From Azoarcus sp. (GTDB taxonomy: Bacteria > Pseudomonadota > Gammaproteobacteria > Burkholderiales > Rhodocyclaceae), in assembly GCA_020725025.1 (NCBI GenBank), contig DYFV01000023.1, positions 1 to 64,000 of the forward strand: a DNA stretch of 64,000 nt. The letters are read 5' to 3'. The translations under genes were made by a program, and so were the position numbers. Below, one piece after another: positions 18,077 to 59,438 of this stretch. The notes below the pieces were generated by a model that saw nothing but the letters and a program-made list of their open reading frames with translations, did not search any database and was not told the DNA's origin. Position 1 is the first letter of the stretch. Every line of letters begins with the position of its first letter.

Positions 18077-18511
<435 letters not shown>

Positions 18512-19294: not shown

Positions 19295-19768
19295 CTACTT
19301 GCGGGCGAGGCCGAGCGCTTCGCGCACCGCGGCCGGGTCGACGACTCCCGACACCGCGACGCGCCCGCCGCGGCCGTCGAAGAAGAAGGTGCGCGGCAGC
19401 TCGCCGCGCCATTTCGGGTCCAGCGCATAGGCGAGAGCCTCGGGGGCGTCGCTGCCGTAGGCGTAGCGCGCCCCCGGCACGCGGAGCCGATCCAGCAGCT
19501 CGGCGAGCGCGGGCTGGGCGGGCTCGACCGCCACGGTCACGAGCTTCACGCGGGGATCCGTCTGCGCCAGTTCGGCGAAGGCCTTCAGGTTCTTCTTGCA
19601 GTGGACGCATTCGAGCGACCACAGGGCGACCACGGTCGGCGCGCCGTGGCTCGCCGGATCGGCGAGGCGCCGGGCGGTGGCGCGGTCGAGGTCGGTGAAG
19701 CCCTCCCCTGCCACGGCGAGGGCCGAGCAGGCAAGGAGCAAGCTGGCCGCGAGCATTTTCGATTTCAT
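19295..19768 (-). CDS. TlpA/thioredoxin-like periplasmic protein
   Basis: Signal peptide MKSKMLAASLLLACSALAVAGEG; VVALWSLECVHCKKNLKAF (CxxC), RTFFFDGRGG. Confidence 0.8.
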   Translation of the reverse strand: MKSKMLAASLLLACSALAVAGEGFTDLDRATARRLADPASHGAPTVVALWSLECVHCKKNLKAFAELAQTDPRVKLVTVAVEPAQPALAELLDRLRVPGARYAYGSDAPEALAYALDPKWRGELPRTFFFDGRGGRVAVSGVVDPAAVREALGLARK

Positions 19769-20952
19769 GGCAGCGGATACCCCTCGAGTCCTTCGTTTGC
19801 GGTGCGCCAGAAGGCGACGAGCGCGTCGCCCCGGCGGACGATGCGCGGCTGATCGGAAGCGCCCTCGGTGGCGGCGAGCGCCACGCGGGCGAAGCTCGCC
19901 CCGCCATCGGCGGAGAGCTCGGCGTAAAGGCGGGTGCGCTCGCCGTCGAACTCCTTCCACACGATCGCCACGCGGCCGCCTGCCACCGCGAGGTCGGCGT
20001 GCGCCGCGCGCTCGCCGCCCACAGGGCGCTGGCCTTCCACCCCGCCCGACGCGAGCCGGCCGTAGAAGACCCGCCCTTCCCCCTCCCGCTCGTTGAACCA
20101 CACCGCGTGACGGGTGCCGTCCGCGGCCACCGCCAGCGACGGACCATGGTGGGGGCAGGCGTCGATCTTCCAGCGGTCGAAGGTGGCACGCTCCACCTTC
20201 TCCGGCCTTCCGTCGGGGCCGAGCCTGGCGATGGCGTGGTCGCGCTCGTTGGGCGCGAAGACATGGCGCCACATCACCAGCGGGGCACCGTCCGTGTCCT
20301 CGGCGAGCGCGATGCGGCAGCACTCGCAGGAGTGGTCGGCCACCCTGGCCTCGGGCCGGAAGCTCCGTCCGCCGTCGTCCGACACGGCGGCGTAGATCGC
20401 CGCGCCGCGGTAGTCCGTCCCCGCACTCTTGGCGGCCTCCAGGTCGCGCTTGTCGATCCAGGTCAGGAGCACCCGGCCGTCGCGCGTCACCATCAGCGAG
20501 TCGAAGCGGTGGGTGATCTCGCTGCGGTCGCGATGCACGGTGATCGGCGCGGCGAAGCGGCCGCCGGCCTCGGCCCGCGCGAGACGGATCTCGCCGGTAT
20601 AGGGCTTGCCCAGCGGGCGGGTCCACGACACCAGCACCGCCCCGTCGCGGCCGAGGGCGACCTTGGGGCGGTTCTCGCCATCGGCGGCGATCGCCTCGGG
20701 CTCGGCGTTCACCGGGACCGGTACCTCCCAGCTCGCGCCGCCGTCGCGGCTCGCCTGCAGGACGACGTGCTGCCCGGCCTTCGACACCGCATACGCGGTG
20801 CCGTCCGGCGCGAAGGCGACGCTGGTGCCGAGCTCCGGACGCGCCGCGCGGGCCGCGACATGACCGTGATCGTGCTGCGCGGCGGCGCCGGCACAAGCGA
20901 GGGCGAGCAGCATGGCCGCGAGGTGGCGGCCGTATCGGGCGGCCTTCACCAT
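19765..20952 (-). CDS. BNR-repeat (exo-alpha-sialidase-like) secreted protein with Cys/His motifs
   Basis: Start MVKAARYGRHLAAMLLALACAGAAAQHDHGH; SWTRPLGKPYTGEI, VSDDGGRSFRPEARVADHSCECCRIALAEDTDG, SADGGASFARV (Asp-box-like). Confidence 0.8.
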   Translation of the reverse strand: MVKAARYGRHLAAMLLALACAGAAAQHDHGHVAARAARPELGTSVAFAPDGTAYAVSKAGQHVVLQASRDGGASWEVPVPVNAEPEAIAADGENRPKVALGRDGAVLVSWTRPLGKPYTGEIRLARAEAGGRFAAPITVHRDRSEITHRFDSLMVTRDGRVLLTWIDKRDLEAAKSAGTDYRGAAIYAAVSDDGGRSFRPEARVADHSCECCRIALAEDTDGAPLVMWRHVFAPNERDHAIARLGPDGRPEKVERATFDRWKIDACPHHGPSLAVAADGTRHAVWFNEREGEGRVFYGRLASGGVEGQRPVGGERAAHADLAVAGGRVAIVWKEFDGERTRLYAELSADGGASFARVALAATEGASDQPRIVRRGDALVAFWRTANEGLEGYPLP

Positions 20953-23081
20953 TTCGCCTCGACCCCCGCCATGACCGTGCGCGGCAGACCGGGCGAGTAC
21001 ATCGCCGCGCCGCGGGAGAGCTGCGCGCTGTCCGCGTAGCGCCGGTCGGTCAGGTTGTTCACGCTGCCGAAGAGCGACACCCTGGGCGTGAGCGCGTAAT
21101 TGCCGCGCAGATTGAAGACGCTGTGACCCCCGTATTTCGCGGTGTTCGCGTCGTCCAGCCAGTAGGCGCCCAGGCGCACCCACTCGAGCTGGGCGCGCAG
21201 CCCGTCGCTCGGCGTCCAGGTGAGCCGCGTGTTGCCGATGAAGCGCGGGGCGCTCGGCTGCTCGTTGCCGCTCAGGTCGCCCTGGTCGGTCACCCACTCC
21301 ACATACTCGTGCAACGCATACGAGAGCGCCGCGTCCAGGCGCAGGTTGCGCGCCAGCGGCACCCCCAGCCCGATCTCCACGCCACGGTGACGGGTCTCGC
21401 CGGCGTTCCGGGTGATCCGGTCGTCGGTGGCAGGATCACGCTGGCTCACGATGTCGTCACGCTTGGTGAGGTGGTAGGCGACCAGATCGTAGGACACCGG
21501 CCCCGCCACGCCGCGCACGCCCAGCTCGTACTGCTCGGCCTTGATCGCCTTCAGGCTCAGGGCCGACTGGGCGAGGGCTCGCGCGTCCGCCGCGTTGCCC
21601 GCCCGCGAGGCACGGAAGAGCTGCGACTCGGACGGCGCGCGGAATCCCTGGTTGTAGGAGGCGAAGAGGTGGGCGTTGCCGCTCAGGGCATAGGTCGCCC
21701 CGAGCTTGGGCGTGGCGCGGCTGAAGCGCACCGTGGTATCGGCCGCCTGGCCGTAGAAGTTGCTGCCGACCTGCACCACGGACGCGGCGATGTCGTTGTC
21801 GAAGCGGTAGCGCATGTCGTCGTAGCGCAGGCCGGCGGTGACGCGCAACCGGTCGGTGGGCGAGATCTCGCCATGGACGTAGGGCGAGATCCCCCGGAAC
21901 TCGACGTCGTAGTCAAAGATCCGCGGCCCCACCGTGTAGTCGACGAATTCCTGGGTCGCACCCGAACCGCGGGTAACCGGGTCGATCCGGTTCTCCTTGC
22001 GCCCGCCCGGGCTCACGTCGAGGTCCACCCCGGCGATCAGCCGCGCCCGCATCGGCGCGAAGTCCCGGCGCCATTTCGTCATCAGGCCGTAGGAGCGGTT
22101 CTGCGTCTTCGAGAGCGTCGGATCGAAGCGCAGCGCGAAGCTCGCCAGCAGGTCCATGCGGTTGTCGCGGACGTAGGGCGTGACCGACAGCAGCGAATCG
22201 CCCGTGTCACGCTCGTAGGCGGTGGAAAGCCGCAGGGCGCTCACCTCGCGGAAGGCGATCGGCAGGTAGTTCCGCGTCGGGTCGTGCTCGTAGTCCTCAC
22301 GCACCAACGGCGAGTTGGCCCCCGTTTCCTGGTCGATCTCCGAGAAGCCGAGCACCGTCTTCAGGGACGTGTCGTCGCCGACGTAGTGGTCCCAGCGGAA
22401 GGTGCCGCCATGCCGGTCGTAGGCGGTGTCGTCGCGCCAGCCGTCGGTGCGGGTGAGGTTGAGATCGGCGCGCCAGCCGCCGTTCCCGTAGCCGTTGCCG
22501 CCGCTCACCAGCCCGCGGCGCCAGCCGTGCCCGCCCACCTCCAGCGAGCCGCCGAGCTCGGCCTCCATGGGCGGCGTACGGGTGAGCACGTTCACCACTC
22601 CGCCGATCGCGTCCGAGCCGTAGAGGGCCGAGGACGGACCGCGATTGACCTCGATGCCGCCCGATTGCGGGATGTTGATCTCGTAGAGTCCGTTGTGGTT
22701 GAAGAAGCCGGTCGAGCGCGTCGGGATGCCGTCTTCCAGGAAGAGATAGACCGGGCTCGTGGTGAAGGGCTGGCGGATCGCGGTGGTGTGCCCTTCCCCG
22801 TTGGTGACCGTGACCGCCGCCCCCGGGATCTGGCTCATCACCTGGGCGGGATGAGCCGGCCTGTCGGCGGCGATGGCCTCTTCCCGGACCGTGCCGACCG
22901 CAGCCGGGGTCTCGACGAGCCGCGCCGCTTCGCGGGTGGCGGTGACGGTGACCTGCTCGAGCACCGTGTCGGCGGCAGCAAGGCTGCCGCCGGTCGCGGC
23001 CAGGCAGGAAATGGCGAGGGCGAGCGGAAGCGGGCGCGGGTTCGCGCCTCGCGGAATGGTGGACGTGAATCGATGCGACAT
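20946..23081 (-). CDS. TonB-dependent outer-membrane receptor
   Basis: Start MSHRFTSTIPRGANPRPLPLALAISCLAATGGSLAAADTVLEQVTVTATRE; plug GIEVNRGPSSALYGSDAIGGVVNVLTR; C-terminal ..VNNLTDRRYADS..GLPRTVMAGVEAKW. Confidence 0.95.
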   Translation of the reverse strand: MSHRFTSTIPRGANPRPLPLALAISCLAATGGSLAAADTVLEQVTVTATREAARLVETPAAVGTVREEAIAADRPAHPAQVMSQIPGAAVTVTNGEGHTTAIRQPFTTSPVYLFLEDGIPTRSTGFFNHNGLYEINIPQSGGIEVNRGPSSALYGSDAIGGVVNVLTRTPPMEAELGGSLEVGGHGWRRGLVSGGNGYGNGGWRADLNLTRTDGWRDDTAYDRHGGTFRWDHYVGDDTSLKTVLGFSEIDQETGANSPLVREDYEHDPTRNYLPIAFREVSALRLSTAYERDTGDSLLSVTPYVRDNRMDLLASFALRFDPTLSKTQNRSYGLMTKWRRDFAPMRARLIAGVDLDVSPGGRKENRIDPVTRGSGATQEFVDYTVGPRIFDYDVEFRGISPYVHGEISPTDRLRVTAGLRYDDMRYRFDNDIAASVVQVGSNFYGQAADTTVRFSRATPKLGATYALSGNAHLFASYNQGFRAPSESQLFRASRAGNAADARALAQSALSLKAIKAEQYELGVRGVAGPVSYDLVAYHLTKRDDIVSQRDPATDDRITRNAGETRHRGVEIGLGVPLARNLRLDAALSYALHEYVEWVTDQGDLSGNEQPSAPRFIGNTRLTWTPSDGLRAQLEWVRLGAYWLDDANTAKYGGHSVFNLRGNYALTPRVSLFGSVNNLTDRRYADSAQLSRGAAMYSPGLPRTVMAGVEAKW

Positions 23082-23175: not shown

Positions 23176-23592
23176 TCAGGCGTCGGGGGGACCTCGTGGA
23201 ACGAGGGGTGTGAGGATCGCGAGGGCTTGCCGCCGCGCGTCGGCGGCAGGCGGCGCGCGCGCCGTGATGGTCGCGCGGCCGAGAACGATCACCGCCTTGG
23301 GATCCGCATCGCCGGGCACCACCGCCGTACGTGCGCCGCACACGTCGCAGCAGCGCATCTCGGCCGCCGCGTCGGGCGCCTCCGACTGCTGCGGATCGAG
23401 CCAGGGCGCGTCGAGGCGCACGATCCCGGCGTGGGTGCAGATCTCGAGCGCCGCCTTACCCGGCGCCGCGCCGCCGATATGGGCGAATCCCGCCAGGGCG
23501 TTCATCGCCAGGGCGAGCATGGCGAGCCACAGCACGAGGCGCGCACGACGCAGGCGGCGTACGGTGCGGAGTGGGCGCGAAAGCGTGCTCAT
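23176..23592 (-). CDS. DUF2946-like protein (copy 1)
   Basis: 138 aa; one N-terminal TM helix; ICTHAGIVRLD and RCCDVCGART motifs. Confidence 0.7.
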   Translation of the reverse strand: MSTLSRPLRTVRRLRRARLVLWLAMLALAMNALAGFAHIGGAAPGKAALEICTHAGIVRLDAPWLDPQQSEAPDAAAEMRCCDVCGARTAVVPGDADPKAVIVLGRATITARAPPAADARRQALAILTPLVPRGPPDA

Positions 23593-23598
23593 GCCGTC

Positions 23599-24339
23599 TC
23601 ACGCATCCAGGGCGAACACGATGGGCACCACCACGCTGGCCGCGACCGGCTCGCCGCCGCGGCGCGCCGGCGCGAACCGCCAGCCGCGCACCGCCTTCGC
23701 CGCCGCCTCGTCGAGCCGCGGGTGGCCGCAGCTGTGCTGCACCTCGACGTGCTGGGCGGCGCCGTCCGCGCTCACCCTCACGAGCAGCATCACCGTGCCC
23801 TCCTCGCCACGGCGGCGCGAGATCAGCGGGTAGGCCGGGGCGGGATTGTCGAGGTAGGCGGCGTCGAAGCGCGGCGCCTGCAGGGGCGCCTCGCTCGCCG
23901 GCGCGACCGGTGCCTGCGGCGCCTGGGATGCGACCGGCGCAGGCGCGTGGACCGGCGCCGCCTCCACCGGCGGTGCTTCCGCCGGGGCCGCGGGCGATGC
24001 GACGGCCACGGGGGCCGGCCGGACCGGCGCGGGCGTCGGCCGGGCCTGCGCGGAAGCCGGCGTCGGCCTCGGGGCGGGCGTCGGCGGGACGGCCGCCCGC
24101 GGCGGGGGCTCGAGCGCCTTCAGGGCCGCCGCCGGCCGGGGCGCCGCGATCGTCCGCACCTCCATGCGCAGCGGCTCGGGACGCGCAGGCGCATCGGCCG
24201 GCGAGGTACCGCTCGCCAGCCAGGCGATCAGCCCGCCGTGCAGCAGCACCACCGCCAGCACGCGCAGCGCCGGCCCGGCGCCGGCTTCGAAGGCCAGCGC
24301 GCCGGGCCGGCCTGCCGGAAAGGTCGATGCAATCACCAT
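23599..24339 (-). CDS. tonB: TonB-family energy transducer
   Basis: Start MVIASTFPAGRPGALAFEAGAGPALRVLAVVLLHGGLIAWLAS; Pro/Ala-rich linker; C-terminal NPAPAYPLISRRRGEEGTVMLLVRVSADGAAQHVEVQHSCGHPRLDEAAAKAVRGWRFAPARRGGEPV. Confidence 0.93.
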   Translation of the reverse strand: MVIASTFPAGRPGALAFEAGAGPALRVLAVVLLHGGLIAWLASGTSPADAPARPEPLRMEVRTIAAPRPAAALKALEPPPRAAVPPTPAPRPTPASAQARPTPAPVRPAPVAVASPAAPAEAPPVEAAPVHAPAPVASQAPQAPVAPASEAPLQAPRFDAAYLDNPAPAYPLISRRRGEEGTVMLLVRVSADGAAQHVEVQHSCGHPRLDEAAAKAVRGWRFAPARRGGEPVAASVVVPIVFALDA

Positions 24340-24446
24340 GGGCTCCGGTTCAACGGCTTGCCGGCCTCGCTCCATGCCCGCGATGCCGCGCGAGCGGCTT
24401 CGGTGGCGGCGAGCGCGAGCAGGGCTGCGGCGATCATCTTCTTCAT
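24333..24446 (-). CDS. Small ORF (37 aa) with signal-peptide-like N-terminus
   Basis: MKKMIAAALLALAATEAARAASRAWSEAGKPLNRSPW; overlaps the tonB start by 7 bp. Confidence 0.4.
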   Translation of the reverse strand: MKKMIAAALLALAATEAARAASRAWSEAGKPLNRSPW

Positions 24447-24639
24447 GGACGTGCACCTTCTTTCACGGCCGTGATCCGGCGCCCTCACCGATCGGGCAGT
24501 GAGGCCGGAGGCACGACCGGCACGATGCAGGGACGGCGCCCCCCCGCGGCGGGCGGCCACGAGGCAGGCGAGACGGGAATGACTCCCGAACCGGGCCGCG
24601 CCTGCCTCCCGGAAGGAAGGCGGCGGCGCGGCGGGACGA

Positions 24640-25035
24640 TCAGAACAGGCGGGGCGGTGCGCGCGGATGGGACGCGGCCCAGGCGAAGAGCGGGCGCGGC
24701 GCGCGATGGTAGAGAATGGGCTGCAGGTCCGGGACGACCGGCAGGGAGAAGCTCACGGGCGGCGCGGGTGGCAGGCCGAAGGAGCCGGCGTGGGTGCCGC
24801 AGCAGGGACAGCGCTCGGCGAAGCCGCCGGCGGCATCGCCCTCCCCGTCCGCGCCCGCGGCGTCATCGACTGCGACGAGCTCGAGTCCCGCCGCGGTGCA
24901 GATCTGGATCCACCGGAAGTCGTCCCCGGTGGCCCAGGACACGGCCTGGCTCACGGCCGGCGCCAGCGCGCCGAGCAGGATCGCCAGCGAGGCGATCCAG
25001 GCGGTGAGGCGACGGTGCGGGCGTGCGCGGAGCAT
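24640..25035 (-). CDS. DUF2946-like protein (copy 2)
   Basis: 131 aa; TM helix WIASLAILLGALAPAVSQA; ICTAAGLELV and RCPCCGTHAGSFGLPPAP motifs. Confidence 0.75.
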   Translation of the reverse strand: MLRARPHRRLTAWIASLAILLGALAPAVSQAVSWATGDDFRWIQICTAAGLELVAVDDAAGADGEGDAAGGFAERCPCCGTHAGSFGLPPAPPVSFSLPVVPDLQPILYHRAPRPLFAWAASHPRAPPRLF

Positions 25036-25073
25036 GGGCGAAGGGCGAAAAGCGGGCGGGTTGTCGAAGGCGA

Positions 25074-25079
25074 ATGATA
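25074..25079 (-). promoter_or_regulatory. Putative -10 element (TATCAT) downstream of the FNR-type box
   Basis: 5/6 match to TATAAT, 21 nt from the box edge as expected for a class II FNR promoter. Confidence 0.45.
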
Positions 25080-25100
25080 GGGAAACCGCAGTCGATGCCC

Positions 25101-25114
25101 TTGACAGGCATCAA
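25101..25114. promoter_or_regulatory. Putative FNR/Anr-type box TTGACaggcATCAA
   Basis: Between the purL stop and the DUF2946-2 start (25035, minus strand). Confidence 0.55.
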
Positions 25115-25145
25115 CTGCGTTCCGGCGCCCGCCCCCTGCGCCGGC

Positions 25146-28100
25146 TTACGCCAGCCAGCGCCGCGCGTTGCGGAACATCCGCATCCACGGCGAATCCTCG
25201 CCCAGCTCTGCCGGATGCCAGCTCATCTGCACCGTGCGGAAGGTCCGCTCCGGGTGCGGCATCATGATGGTGAAGCGCCCATCCGCGGTGGTGAAGCCGG
25301 TGACGCCGCCGGGCGAGCCGTTCGGATTGAACGGATAGGTTTCGGTCGGCGCACCCCGGTTGTCCACGTAGCGCAGCGCGGCGAGCGCGCGATCGCGGTC
25401 GGCCGGATCGGCGAACACCGCCTGCCCCTCGCCGTGGCTCACCACGATGGGCATGCGGCTGCCCGCCATGCCGGCGAGCAGGATGGAGGGGCTGTCCAGC
25501 ACCTCGGCCATCACGAAGCGCGCCTCGAACTGCTCGCTGCGGTTGCGGTGGAAGGTCGGCCAGTGCTCTGCGCCCGGGATGATGGCGGCGAGGTTGGCCA
25601 TCATCTGGCAGCCGTTGCACACGCCCAGGGCGAAGGTGTCGGAGCGACCGAAGAAGGCCTCGAACTCCGCGCGCAGCTTGGGGTTGAACAGGATGGACTT
25701 GGCCCAGCCCTGGCCCGCACCCAGCACGTCGCCGTAGGAGAAGCCGCCGCAGGCGGCGAGCCCGTGGAAGGTCTTCAGATCGACCCGGCCAGCCTGCAGG
25801 TCGGACATGTGCACGTCGAAGGGCGCGAAACCCGCGCGCTCGAAGGCGGCCGCCATCTCGGCCTGGGAGTTCACCCCCTGTTCGCGCAGGATGGCGATGG
25901 CCGGGCGCGCGCCGGTGGCGATCATGGGCGCGGCGACGTCCTCGGCCGGGTCGTAGGTGAGCGACACCGACAGACCGGGGTTGCCCGCGTCGGCCAGGGC
26001 CTCGAACTCCTCCCGCGCGCACTCGGCGTCGTCGCGCAGGCGCGCGATCCGGTGGCTGGTCTCCGACCAGGCCTGGACCAGCTCGCTGCGGGAAGCCGAG
26101 AACACCAGCTTGGCGTTGCGCCACAAGCGGATCTCGTCCTTGTCGTTGGGCTCGCCGATGAAGTGGTAGGCGATGCCGGCGGCGCGCAGCGGCGCGGTGA
26201 CGCGGGCGCGGTCGGCGCGGCGGATCTGCACCACCGCGCCCAGCTCCTCGGCGAAGAGGCCGGCGAAGAGCCGGTCGTTGAGCCGGCCCTTGATCGTGTC
26301 GGGCTTCTTGTCGAGGCCGTCCACGTCGTTCATGTAGGGGTCGAAGCACACCGTGTCGAGCACGACGGAGAGCCCGCAGCGAGCCGCGAAGGCCATCTCG
26401 CACAGGGTGGCGAAGAGGCCGCCGTCGCTGCGGTCGTGGTAGGCCAGGAGCAGGCCTTCGTTCCGGAGCTCCTGCACGACGGCGAAGAAGGCGGAAAGCT
26501 GCTCGGCCGCGATGTCCGGCGCGTGCTCGCCCACCGATTTGTAGACCTGCGCGAGCGCCGAGCCGCCGAGGCGGTTGCGGCCTTCGCCGAGGTCGATCAG
26601 CACCAGCTCGGTCTCCTCGCCGTCGGGCAGCTGCAGCTGCGGCGTGAGCGTGCGGCGGATGTCCGCCACCGGCGCGAAGGCGGTGACGATGAGCGAGAGC
26701 GGCGCCACCACCTGGCGGTCCTCGCCGTCCTCCTGCCACGCGGTCCGCATGGACAGGGAGTCCTTGCCCACCGGGATCGACAGCCCGGCGCTCTGGCAGA
26801 ACTTGGAAACCGCGCTCACGGTGTCGAAGAGCTTGGCGTCCTCGCCGCGGTGGCCGGCGGCGGCCATCCAGTTGGCGGAGAGCTTCACCTGGCCCAGCTC
26901 GGGGATGTCGGCCGCGGCGATGTTGGTGATCGCCTCGCCCACCGCCATGCGGCCCGAGGCGGGTGCGTCGAGGCAGGCTACCGGGGTGCGCTCGCCCATG
27001 GCGAAAGCCTCGCCGCGATAGCCCTTGAAACTCATGGCGGTGACCGCCACGTCGGCCACCGGCACCTGCCAGGGGCCGACCATCTGGTCGCGGGCCGTCA
27101 TGCCGCCCACCGAGCGGTCGCCGATGGTGATGAGGAAGCTCTTGCTCGCCACCGTGGGCAGGCGCAGCACCCGCAGGCAGGCCTCCTTCAGCTCGATGTC
27201 GGTGAGGTCGAAGGGCGGCAGGTGCACCGCGCGGCGCGACACGTTGCGGGTCATGCGCGGCGGCTTGCCGAGCAGCACCTGCATCTCCATGTCCACCGGC
27301 TTGTTGCCGAAGTGGCGGTCGGTGACGGTGAGGTGACCGTCGGCGGTCGCCTCGCCCAGCACCGCGAAGGGGCAGCGCTCGCGCTCGCAGATGGCGCGGA
27401 ACTCCGCCAGCCGCTCGGGCGCGATGGCGAGCACGTAGCGCTCCTGGGACTCGTTGCTCCAGATCTCGCGCGGGCTCATGCCCGGCTCCTCGATGTGCAC
27501 CTCGCGCAGTTCGAAGCGCGCACCGAGGCCGGCCGAGTCGGCCAGTTCCGGCATGGCGTTGGAGAGGCCGCCCGCGCCCACGTCGTGGATGGACAGGATG
27601 GGGTTGTGGCTGCCGAGCTGCCAGCAGCGGTCGATCACCTCCTGGCAGCGGCGCTGGATCTCGGGGTTGCCGCGCTGTACCGAGGCGAAATCCAGGTCGG
27701 CGGTGTTGGTGCCGGTGGCCATGCTGGAGGCGGCGCCTCCGCCCAGGCCGATGAGCATGCCGGGGCCGCCCAGCTGGATCAGCAGGGTGCCGGGCGCGAA
27801 CTGCTCCTTGAAGGACTGCTGCGCCTGAATGCTGCCCAGGCCGCCGGCGATCATGATGGGCTTGTGGTAGCCGCGCACCTCGCCCTGCACCGCCTGCTCG
27901 AAGCTGCGGAAGTAGCCGGCGAGGTTGGGGCGGCCGAACTCGTTGTTGAAGGCGGCGCCGCCGATCGGCCCTTCGATCATGATGTCGAGCGCCGAGGCGA
28001 TGCGCTCGGGGCGGCCGTAGGGCACTTCCCAGGGCTGCTCGAAGCCGGGGATGTTGAGGTTCGACACCGAGAAGCCGGTGAGGCCCGCCTTGGGCTTGGA

Positions 28101-29078
28101 GCCCCGCCCGGTCGCGCCCTCGTCGCGGATCTCGCCGCCGGCGCCGGTGGCCGCGCCCGGGAAGGGCGAGATCGCGGTCGGATGGTTGTGGGTCTCCACC
28201 TTGGCGAGGATGTGGGTCTCCTCGTTGCGGAAGCGCCACTGGCCTTCCGCATCCGGGTAGAAGCGCTCGATGGAGGCGCCCTCGATCACCGAGGCGTTGT
28301 CCGAGTAGGCGACCACCGTGCCCTCGGGATGGGCGGCGTGGGTCTCGCGGATCATGCCGAAGAGCGTCTTCTCCTCGGGGCGCGCGTCGATCACCCACTC
28401 GGCGTTGAAGATCTTGTGGCGGCAGTGCTCGGAGTTCGCCTGGGCGAACATCATGAGCTCGACGTCGGTCGGGTTGCGCCCGATGCGGGTGAAGTTGTCC
28501 ACCAGGTAGTCGATCTCGTCCTCCGAGAGCGCCAGGCCCAGCTCGGCGTTGGCGGCGACCAGCGCATCGCGGCCGCCGCCCACCACGTCCACGGTCGTGA
28601 GCGGCTGCGGCGAGTAGTGGTGGAAGAGCGCCTCCGCGGCTTCCGCCGAATGGAGCACCGATTCGGTCATCCGGTCGTGCACGCGCGGCAGCACCGCGGC
28701 GCGCTGGCGCTCGTCCAGCCCGTTCTTCAGCTCCAGGGTGTAGGCCACGCCGCGCTCGATGCGCACCACCTTGTCGAAGCCGCACTGGCGCGCGATGTCG
28801 GTCGCCTTGGAGGACCATGGCGAGATCGTGCCCAGCCGCGGCACCACCAGCAGCAGCGCGCCGGCGGGCGGCTGGGGCGTCGCGGGTATCGCGCCCAGCA
28901 GCTCGACCAGGCGATCCTGCTCTTCGGGCGCAAGCGGCGCGGCGAGCTCGACGAAGTACCAGTGCTCGGCGGCGAGCCCCTTCATCTTCGGCAGCACTTC
29001 GGCGATGGAACGCGACAGGCGCGCAAGGCGGGACGGAGAGAGCGCCGGGGCGCCGCGCAGCTTGAGGAATTCGGACAT
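25146..29078 (-). CDS. purL: Phosphoribosylformylglycinamidine synthase
   Basis: About 1310 aa; start [62 protein letters not shown]-terminal GATase [12 protein letters not shown]. Confidence 0.98.
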
Positions 29079-29266
29079 TTGGGTCGGTACGGACGGTGGG
29101 AACGGGGCGACCGGCACGCGCCGGTCGGAAACCGCGAATTATACCCGAGCCCGCCTCGCCGCCCGACCTCCCGTCGACAGGCACGGCTACCCGATTCTGC
29201 GTAAGCCATACGAGGCAGGGCGGACGCCGATCGGCTAGAATTCGCGTTTTTGTTCCGCGCCACCCG

Positions 29267-59391: not shown

Positions 59392-59405
59392 TTGATCTGG
59401 GTCAA
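59392..59405. promoter_or_regulatory. Putative FNR/Anr-type box 1, TTGATctggGTCAA
   Basis: Upstream of ompW; centre 33 bp from box 2. Confidence 0.6.
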
Positions 59406-59424: not shown

Positions 59425-59438
59425 TTGATCTCGATCAA
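59425..59438. promoter_or_regulatory. Putative FNR/Anr-type box 2, TTGATctcgATCAA (perfect consensus)
   Basis: Exact TTGAT-N4-ATCAA; 21 nt before a TAGCAT -10-like hexamer (59460-59465). Confidence 0.75.

Follow-up and report, generated by a model that had tools for sequence, protein, structure and literature searches.

A putative Fnr-type class II promoter in front of a CruR-type leader ORF and a predicted copper-uptake cluster in Azoarcus sp.

The region behind purL on the minus strand of a 64,000-nucleotide stretch of Azoarcus DNA (the window) contains a short box resembling an FNR operator, followed by a cluster of DUF2946, TonB and receptor genes. This raises the question of whether the cluster is controlled by oxygen, and by which regulator. 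A first-pass annotation of the window had described an FNR/Anr-type box with class II geometry and suggested that the uptake cluster is switched on at low oxygen, in keeping with a demand for copper. The features discussed here are listed in Table 1.

Table 1. Features of the purL–cruR-A intergenic region and the downstream cluster, in the order of reading on the minus strand
Feature	Position	Strand	Basis or remark
purL (FGAM synthase), upstream neighbour	25146..29117	-	outside the regulated unit
Hairpin, 14-bp stem with G-U pairs, 5-nt loop, then GUUUCCC	25087..25119	-	overlaps the box
FNR-type box TTGAT-GCCT-GTCAA (TTGATGCCTGTCAA)	25101..25114	-	sequence; position kept in 15 congeners and other genera
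Gap between box and -10 element, 21 nt	25100-25080	-	
-10 element TATCAT, separated from the box by 21 nt	25074..25079	-	sequence
Predicted transcription start	25066..25067	-	from the position of the -10 element
cruR-A, DUF2946 leader ORF, CPCC - 45 residues - RAPP at the C terminus	24640..25035	-	
Candidate Rho-utilisation region, rich in C and poor in G, over the 3' half of cruR-A	24630..24827	-	as in B. pertussis cruR (PMC9426467)
tonB (TonB_C)	23599..24456	-	start codon uncertain
cruR-B, second DUF2946 ORF, CDVC - 47 residues - RGPP	23176..23592	-	directly before the receptor gene
TonB-dependent outer-membrane receptor	20946..23081	-	YncD and the PQQ transporter are the nearest solved structures; outside the OprC type
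exbD, where the cluster ends	18077..18511	-	exbB- and thioredoxin-like ORFs between receptor and exbD

The box, its spacing and its conservation

The stop codon of purL occupies 25148-25146 on the minus strand and is followed by the box. The letters of the box, its coordinates (25114-25101), its strand and the 21 nt that separate it from the TATCAT at 25079-25074 are exactly those of the first-pass annotation, and the distance to the DUF2946 start, estimated there as about 70 bp, was measured as 66–79 bp to the ATG of cruR-A (25035). The box is asymmetric, with one FNR half-site TTGAT and another half that reads TTGAC on its own strand, and TTGATGCCTGTCAA is one base away from the symmetric consensus TTGAT-N4-ATCAA. 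If transcription starts 7–8 nt after the -10 element, the centre of the box would be at -40.5/-41.5, close to the -41.5 proposed earlier. No -35 hexamer is present 16–18 nt before the -10 element, the best match having at most 3 of 6 positions, as expected of an activator-dependent promoter. A centre near -41.5 relative to the predicted start, a good -10 element and a poor -35 region together correspond to class II geometry.

The whole 5.44-Mb assembly contains 32 TTGAYNNNNRTCAA sites, so the chance expectation in the 110-bp spacer is about 0.0007. Four of the 32 fall in the 64-kb window: one at 2177, two before ompW and one before cruR-A. The two FNR-type boxes before ompW are at 59392-59405 and 59425-59438, and one of them is a perfect TTGAT-N4-ATCAA. 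Some 35 nt downstream of the box at 2177-2190, TTGATCGGCGTCAA, begins an ORF of 129 aa, which by eye looks TusE/DsrC-like.

Conservation in relatives, a check named by the first-pass annotation, was assessed with purL and its downstream region from 16 congeners. Fifteen of the congeners retain a cruR-type ORF behind purL, and every one of them has the box, as TTGACTGCAGTCAA in 13 and as TTGACTGCAATCAA in two. It is accompanied by TAGAAT at 21 nt in 14 of them and by TAGGAT at 22 nt in the other (G013). The purL stop codon and the box are 39–76 nt apart, and the flanking sequences are divergent. Among six representatives, the invariant columns are the TTGA/TCAA halves, the GG after them and the TA..AT of the -10 element. 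The single congener without a cruR-type ORF (G012) has a PCuAC-like gene directly after purL and no box. When all same-genus upstream regions are counted (16 orthologues and the paralogue of this genome), 17 of 17 have the box and a -10 element at 21–22 nt, against a shuffle mean of 0.00. The congeners are related, and these counts are not independent; the same holds within the clades of other genera. Two features are less favourable: TTGAC-N4-GTCAA is the form in most congeners, where the textbook box is TTGAT-N4-ATCAA, and the TATCAT and box of the species studied here are weaker than their congener counterparts.

The arrangement extends to six other genera. Upstream regions of 62 homologues from other genera in the same family were compared. 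Within 200 nt, 24 of them contain a box when one mismatch is allowed, compared with a mean of 0.79 after dinucleotide shuffling, and in 18 the box is combined with TANNNT 21 or 22 nt away, compared with 0.01. A scan of the spacing shows a sole peak at 21–22 nt. Less favourably, the full arrangement is missing in 44 of the 62. In a separate collection of 79 loci, 75 of which entered the box count (four were left out), 12 have the box and the -10 element. At the level of these sequences the box is lineage-linked and not a general part of cruR, because all 12 come from Azoarcus, Aromatoleum or Thauera, and it occurs in none of the 31 loci of Janthinobacterium, Massilia, Duganella and Rugamonas in the same collection. 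The lineages that bear the box are mainly denitrifiers, and the others are mainly aerobes.

Candidate regulators and the purL hairpin

The reader of the box is most likely the oxygen-sensing Fnr encoded in the genus, as judged from the company in which such boxes occur and from the protein itself. The palindrome TTGACTGCAGTCAA is also found in two congeners before napF (NCBIfam napF, 116 bits), the first gene of the periplasmic nitrate reductase operon. In the genome studied here, two similar boxes each precede ccoN (at C15:13583 and 13797), a gene for a hydrogenase small subunit and ompW, and others are found before the divergent hemN/fnr pair, usp, hsp20 and a cytochrome c gene. Of these, ccoN and hemN/fnr are typical oxygen-controlled genes. 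The congeners encode a full-length Fnr (NCBIfam NF008365, 249 bits, cut-off 228) with CSQCNLVELC near its N terminus, and the nearest solved chains are FNR. In this genome, Fnr with its cluster-binding cysteines is encoded by a gene that is split, the N- and C-terminal parts lying on two contig ends (C30 and C15). The FNR-type reading of the first-pass annotation is supported by the conserved box, -10 element and spacing, by the boxes at anaerobic genes and by the cysteine-bearing Fnr. The locus shares with class II FNR/ANR promoters the half-sites, the N4 spacing, the place relative to the -10 element, the lack of a -35 hexamer and an Fnr gene in the genome. It differs in its target, a predicted copper-uptake cluster with a leader ORF, and in the TTGAC half-site that is common in the genus.

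An unlikely alternative is that the box is read by Dnr, an NO-responsive, cysteine-less relative of Fnr, in which case induction would follow denitrification intermediates and not lack of oxygen as such. This genome encodes two Dnr-like Crp/Fnr proteins (L094 and L095) that have the ETLSR recognition helix but lack the N-terminal cysteine motif, and nosZ is present in 17 of 17 genomes. The published beta-proteobacterial Dnr motif, CTTGATnnnnATCAAG, is nearly the same as the box, and the outer-membrane copper receptor gene nosA is a predicted member of the NnrR regulon of Brucella (PMC1274295). The Dnr/NnrR regulons of denitrifiers therefore use the same motif class and include a comparable predicted target, although they are described there without a cruR leader ORF (PMC1274295). 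Against Dnr, ccoN and hemN/fnr of this genome have boxes of the same kind in front of them, though the sequence of a box alone cannot decide. As the two motifs are practically the same, Fnr is preferred, not proven.

It is much less probable that a factor other than an Fnr-type protein, such as a copper-responsive regulator, uses the palindrome TTGACTGCAGTCAA as its operator. The central TGCA is also conserved in most congeners, which goes beyond the needs of an Fnr box. However, the identical palindrome stands before napF, and the TTGA/TCAA halves and the spacing are constant where the centre varies, both in the species studied here and in other genera. A MerR-type copper operator was rejected because the palindrome is not situated between -35 and -10 and also occurs before napF.

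A hairpin that the first-pass annotation had missed, CGCAGTTGATGCCT-gtcaa-GGGCATCGACTGCG (25119-25087), lies directly 3' of the purL stop codon and is probably the 3' end signal of purL. Judged as an intrinsic terminator, its stem is strong, but the T run is short (GTTTCCC only), and it is absent from the terminator-scan list. The hairpin covers the box at this place in this species only, so the end signal of purL and the cruR promoter appear to be fused here, and the operator reading is weaker if this species is taken alone. In the congeners, the best hairpin is upstream of the box in 14 of 15 and downstream in one of 15, from which it follows that the box is kept independently of the purL hairpin. 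That the box is a mere by-product of this terminator hairpin with no operator role was the first explanation considered, given the overlap with the 14-bp stem and a fold z-score of -3.2 for the stem-loop that holds the box, and it was dropped as barely credible, since the 15 congeners maintain box, spacing and -10 element although their best hairpin never overlaps the box, the symmetry axes of box and hairpin differ, and homologues elsewhere in this genome carry the box without purL.

CruR-type leader ORFs and the proposed control of the cluster

The preferred reading, activation by Fnr, accounts for one signal only. The first gene of the cluster, cruR-A (131 aa), is a predicted copper-responsive leader ORF that the first-pass annotation had missed, so oxygen would be only one of two probable inputs. 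In B. pertussis, CruR is a copper-sensing leader ORF and governs Rho-dependent termination upstream of the gene for a copper receptor (PMC9426467). Ribosomes are arrested by RAPP and by RGPP, and arrest on CruR has been shown in vitro (PMC12992588). As in the cruR-bfrG/crtA-bp2921 operon of B. pertussis (PMC9426467, PMC12914433), a DUF2946 leader ORF comes first in a TonB-receptor operon, with CXXC and a C-terminal RAPP 45 residues apart and a C-rich 3' half. cruR-A stands at the head of a predicted copper operon, and its relatives head PCuAC, SCO1 and OprC-type genes. In contrast to B. pertussis, the next genes here are tonB and a second, RGPP-bearing cruR, and an Fnr-type box is present in front, of which there is no mention in PMC9426467.

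When compared with the pattern of CXXC and RAPP at 45 ± 2 residues, cruR-B has CDVC-47-RGPP, with RGPP instead of RAPP. Two CruR-type leader ORFs, one with RAPP and one with RGPP, are therefore found in one cluster with tonB between them; the congeners have one cruR, then PCuAC and the orthologous receptor. A two-step copper attenuation by cruR-A and cruR-B is possible. The leader of cruR-A (25036-25066) is C-rich and has no Shine-Dalgarno-like sequence before the start codon, and the congeners are alike in this respect; weak translation of CruR may be by design.

A tblastn search with tonB and the receptor found a linked receptor in 15 of 15 congeners; its tonB hits were limited to two genomes, this one included. 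The link to copper made by the first-pass annotation is borne out by both DUF2946 proteins and by the copper-chaperone neighbours in relatives, and CruR and PCuAC point to copper as the probable cargo. Two copper sinks are encoded, ccoN and the nosZ shared by all 17 genomes. The cbb3 oxidase and nitrous-oxide reductase, both produced under low oxygen, require copper, which is otherwise toxic. A literature search on copper uptake in Aromatoleum, or on PCuAC with FnrL, yielded nothing useful. Within the cluster, 19765-20944 of the window encodes a periplasmic protein of the repeat type that contains a CECC motif and matches no Pfam family.

The sequence contains the box, its spacing, the -10 element in a promoter that lacks a -35 hexamer, their conservation, an Fnr gene, the CruR motifs at their spacing and the C-rich stretch. 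From these we infer binding, activation at low oxygen, the start site, the extent of the operon, the copper response and the copper cargo. We consider it likely that the cruR-A-tonB-cruR-B-receptor-exbBD cluster is under Fnr-type class II activation at low oxygen, followed by copper attenuation through CruR and Rho. In this scheme, an Fnr-type activator would bind the box at the class II promoter, and low oxygen would lead to transcription from cruR-A through tonB, cruR-B and the TonB-receptor gene to exbBD. When copper is scarce, the ribosome translating CruR-A would stall at RAPP and transcription would pass; when copper is present, the ribosome would be released and Rho would end the transcript. 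CruR-B is probably also a copper-sensing leader ORF. Expression of the operon would require both low oxygen and a shortage of copper.

Each of these elements is known already; CruR and FNR together with copper were not found as a combination in the literature searched. If the scheme is true, an Fnr-type promoter before a copper-sensing leader ORF ties copper import to the moment of need. It would also have a bearing on N2O emission, because NosZ needs copper.

Other cruR loci and the OprC/NosA receptors

Two further loci of the same genome carry boxes. A cruR, 55% identical, at C111:4504 (L116/L119) is preceded by ATGATCTCGATCAA and, 21 nt on, by TAGAAT, and it heads SCO1-PCuAC. A DUF2946 ORF at C8:5769 (L280) is preceded by TTGATCGAAATCAG with TAGCAT 23 nt further. 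The latter ORF is followed by a receptor that bears GGCGGRM, a motif of OprC/NosA-like proteins. The window receptor itself was tried as an OprC/NosA protein and rejected, as TIGR01778 gave 36.5 bits against a cut-off of 472.

OprC is reported to be induced anaerobically, and NosA to be anaerobic and copper-repressed (PMC8610252); a cruR homologue is found in front of oprC (PMC9426467). The third cruR of this genome resembles the OprC/NosA systems of Pseudomonas (PMC8610252) in preceding a GGCGGRM receptor, and it has the box; the window receptor is unlike them in lying outside that family. The boxes at both other cruR loci would explain the anaerobic induction and copper repression of NosA/OprC receptors. 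On balance, we lean towards a broader proposal, namely that in denitrifying beta-proteobacteria several copper-acquisition operons (those of YncD-like and OprC/NosA receptors and SCO1-PCuAC) share an Fnr-type class II promoter and a CruR leader ORF, which would form a gate for low oxygen and low copper and would explain the long-known anaerobic, copper-repressed expression of NosA/OprC-type receptors. The anatomy of box, -10 element, cruR and receptor would then provide a concrete mechanism for both properties. In another genus, a cruR-PCuAC-OprC-type receptor locus also has the box, and TIGR01778 gave 293 bits over the available N-terminal third of the receptor.

A class-wide search for cruR relatives was thin, with relatives in 8 of 368 other genomes, and exact boxes were present at two of the five loci checked. 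At two loci from two distant families of the class (L271 and L272), perfect FNR boxes stand before DUF2946-like ORFs that precede TonB receptors; in these ORFs CXXC is apparently absent and RAPP is retained.
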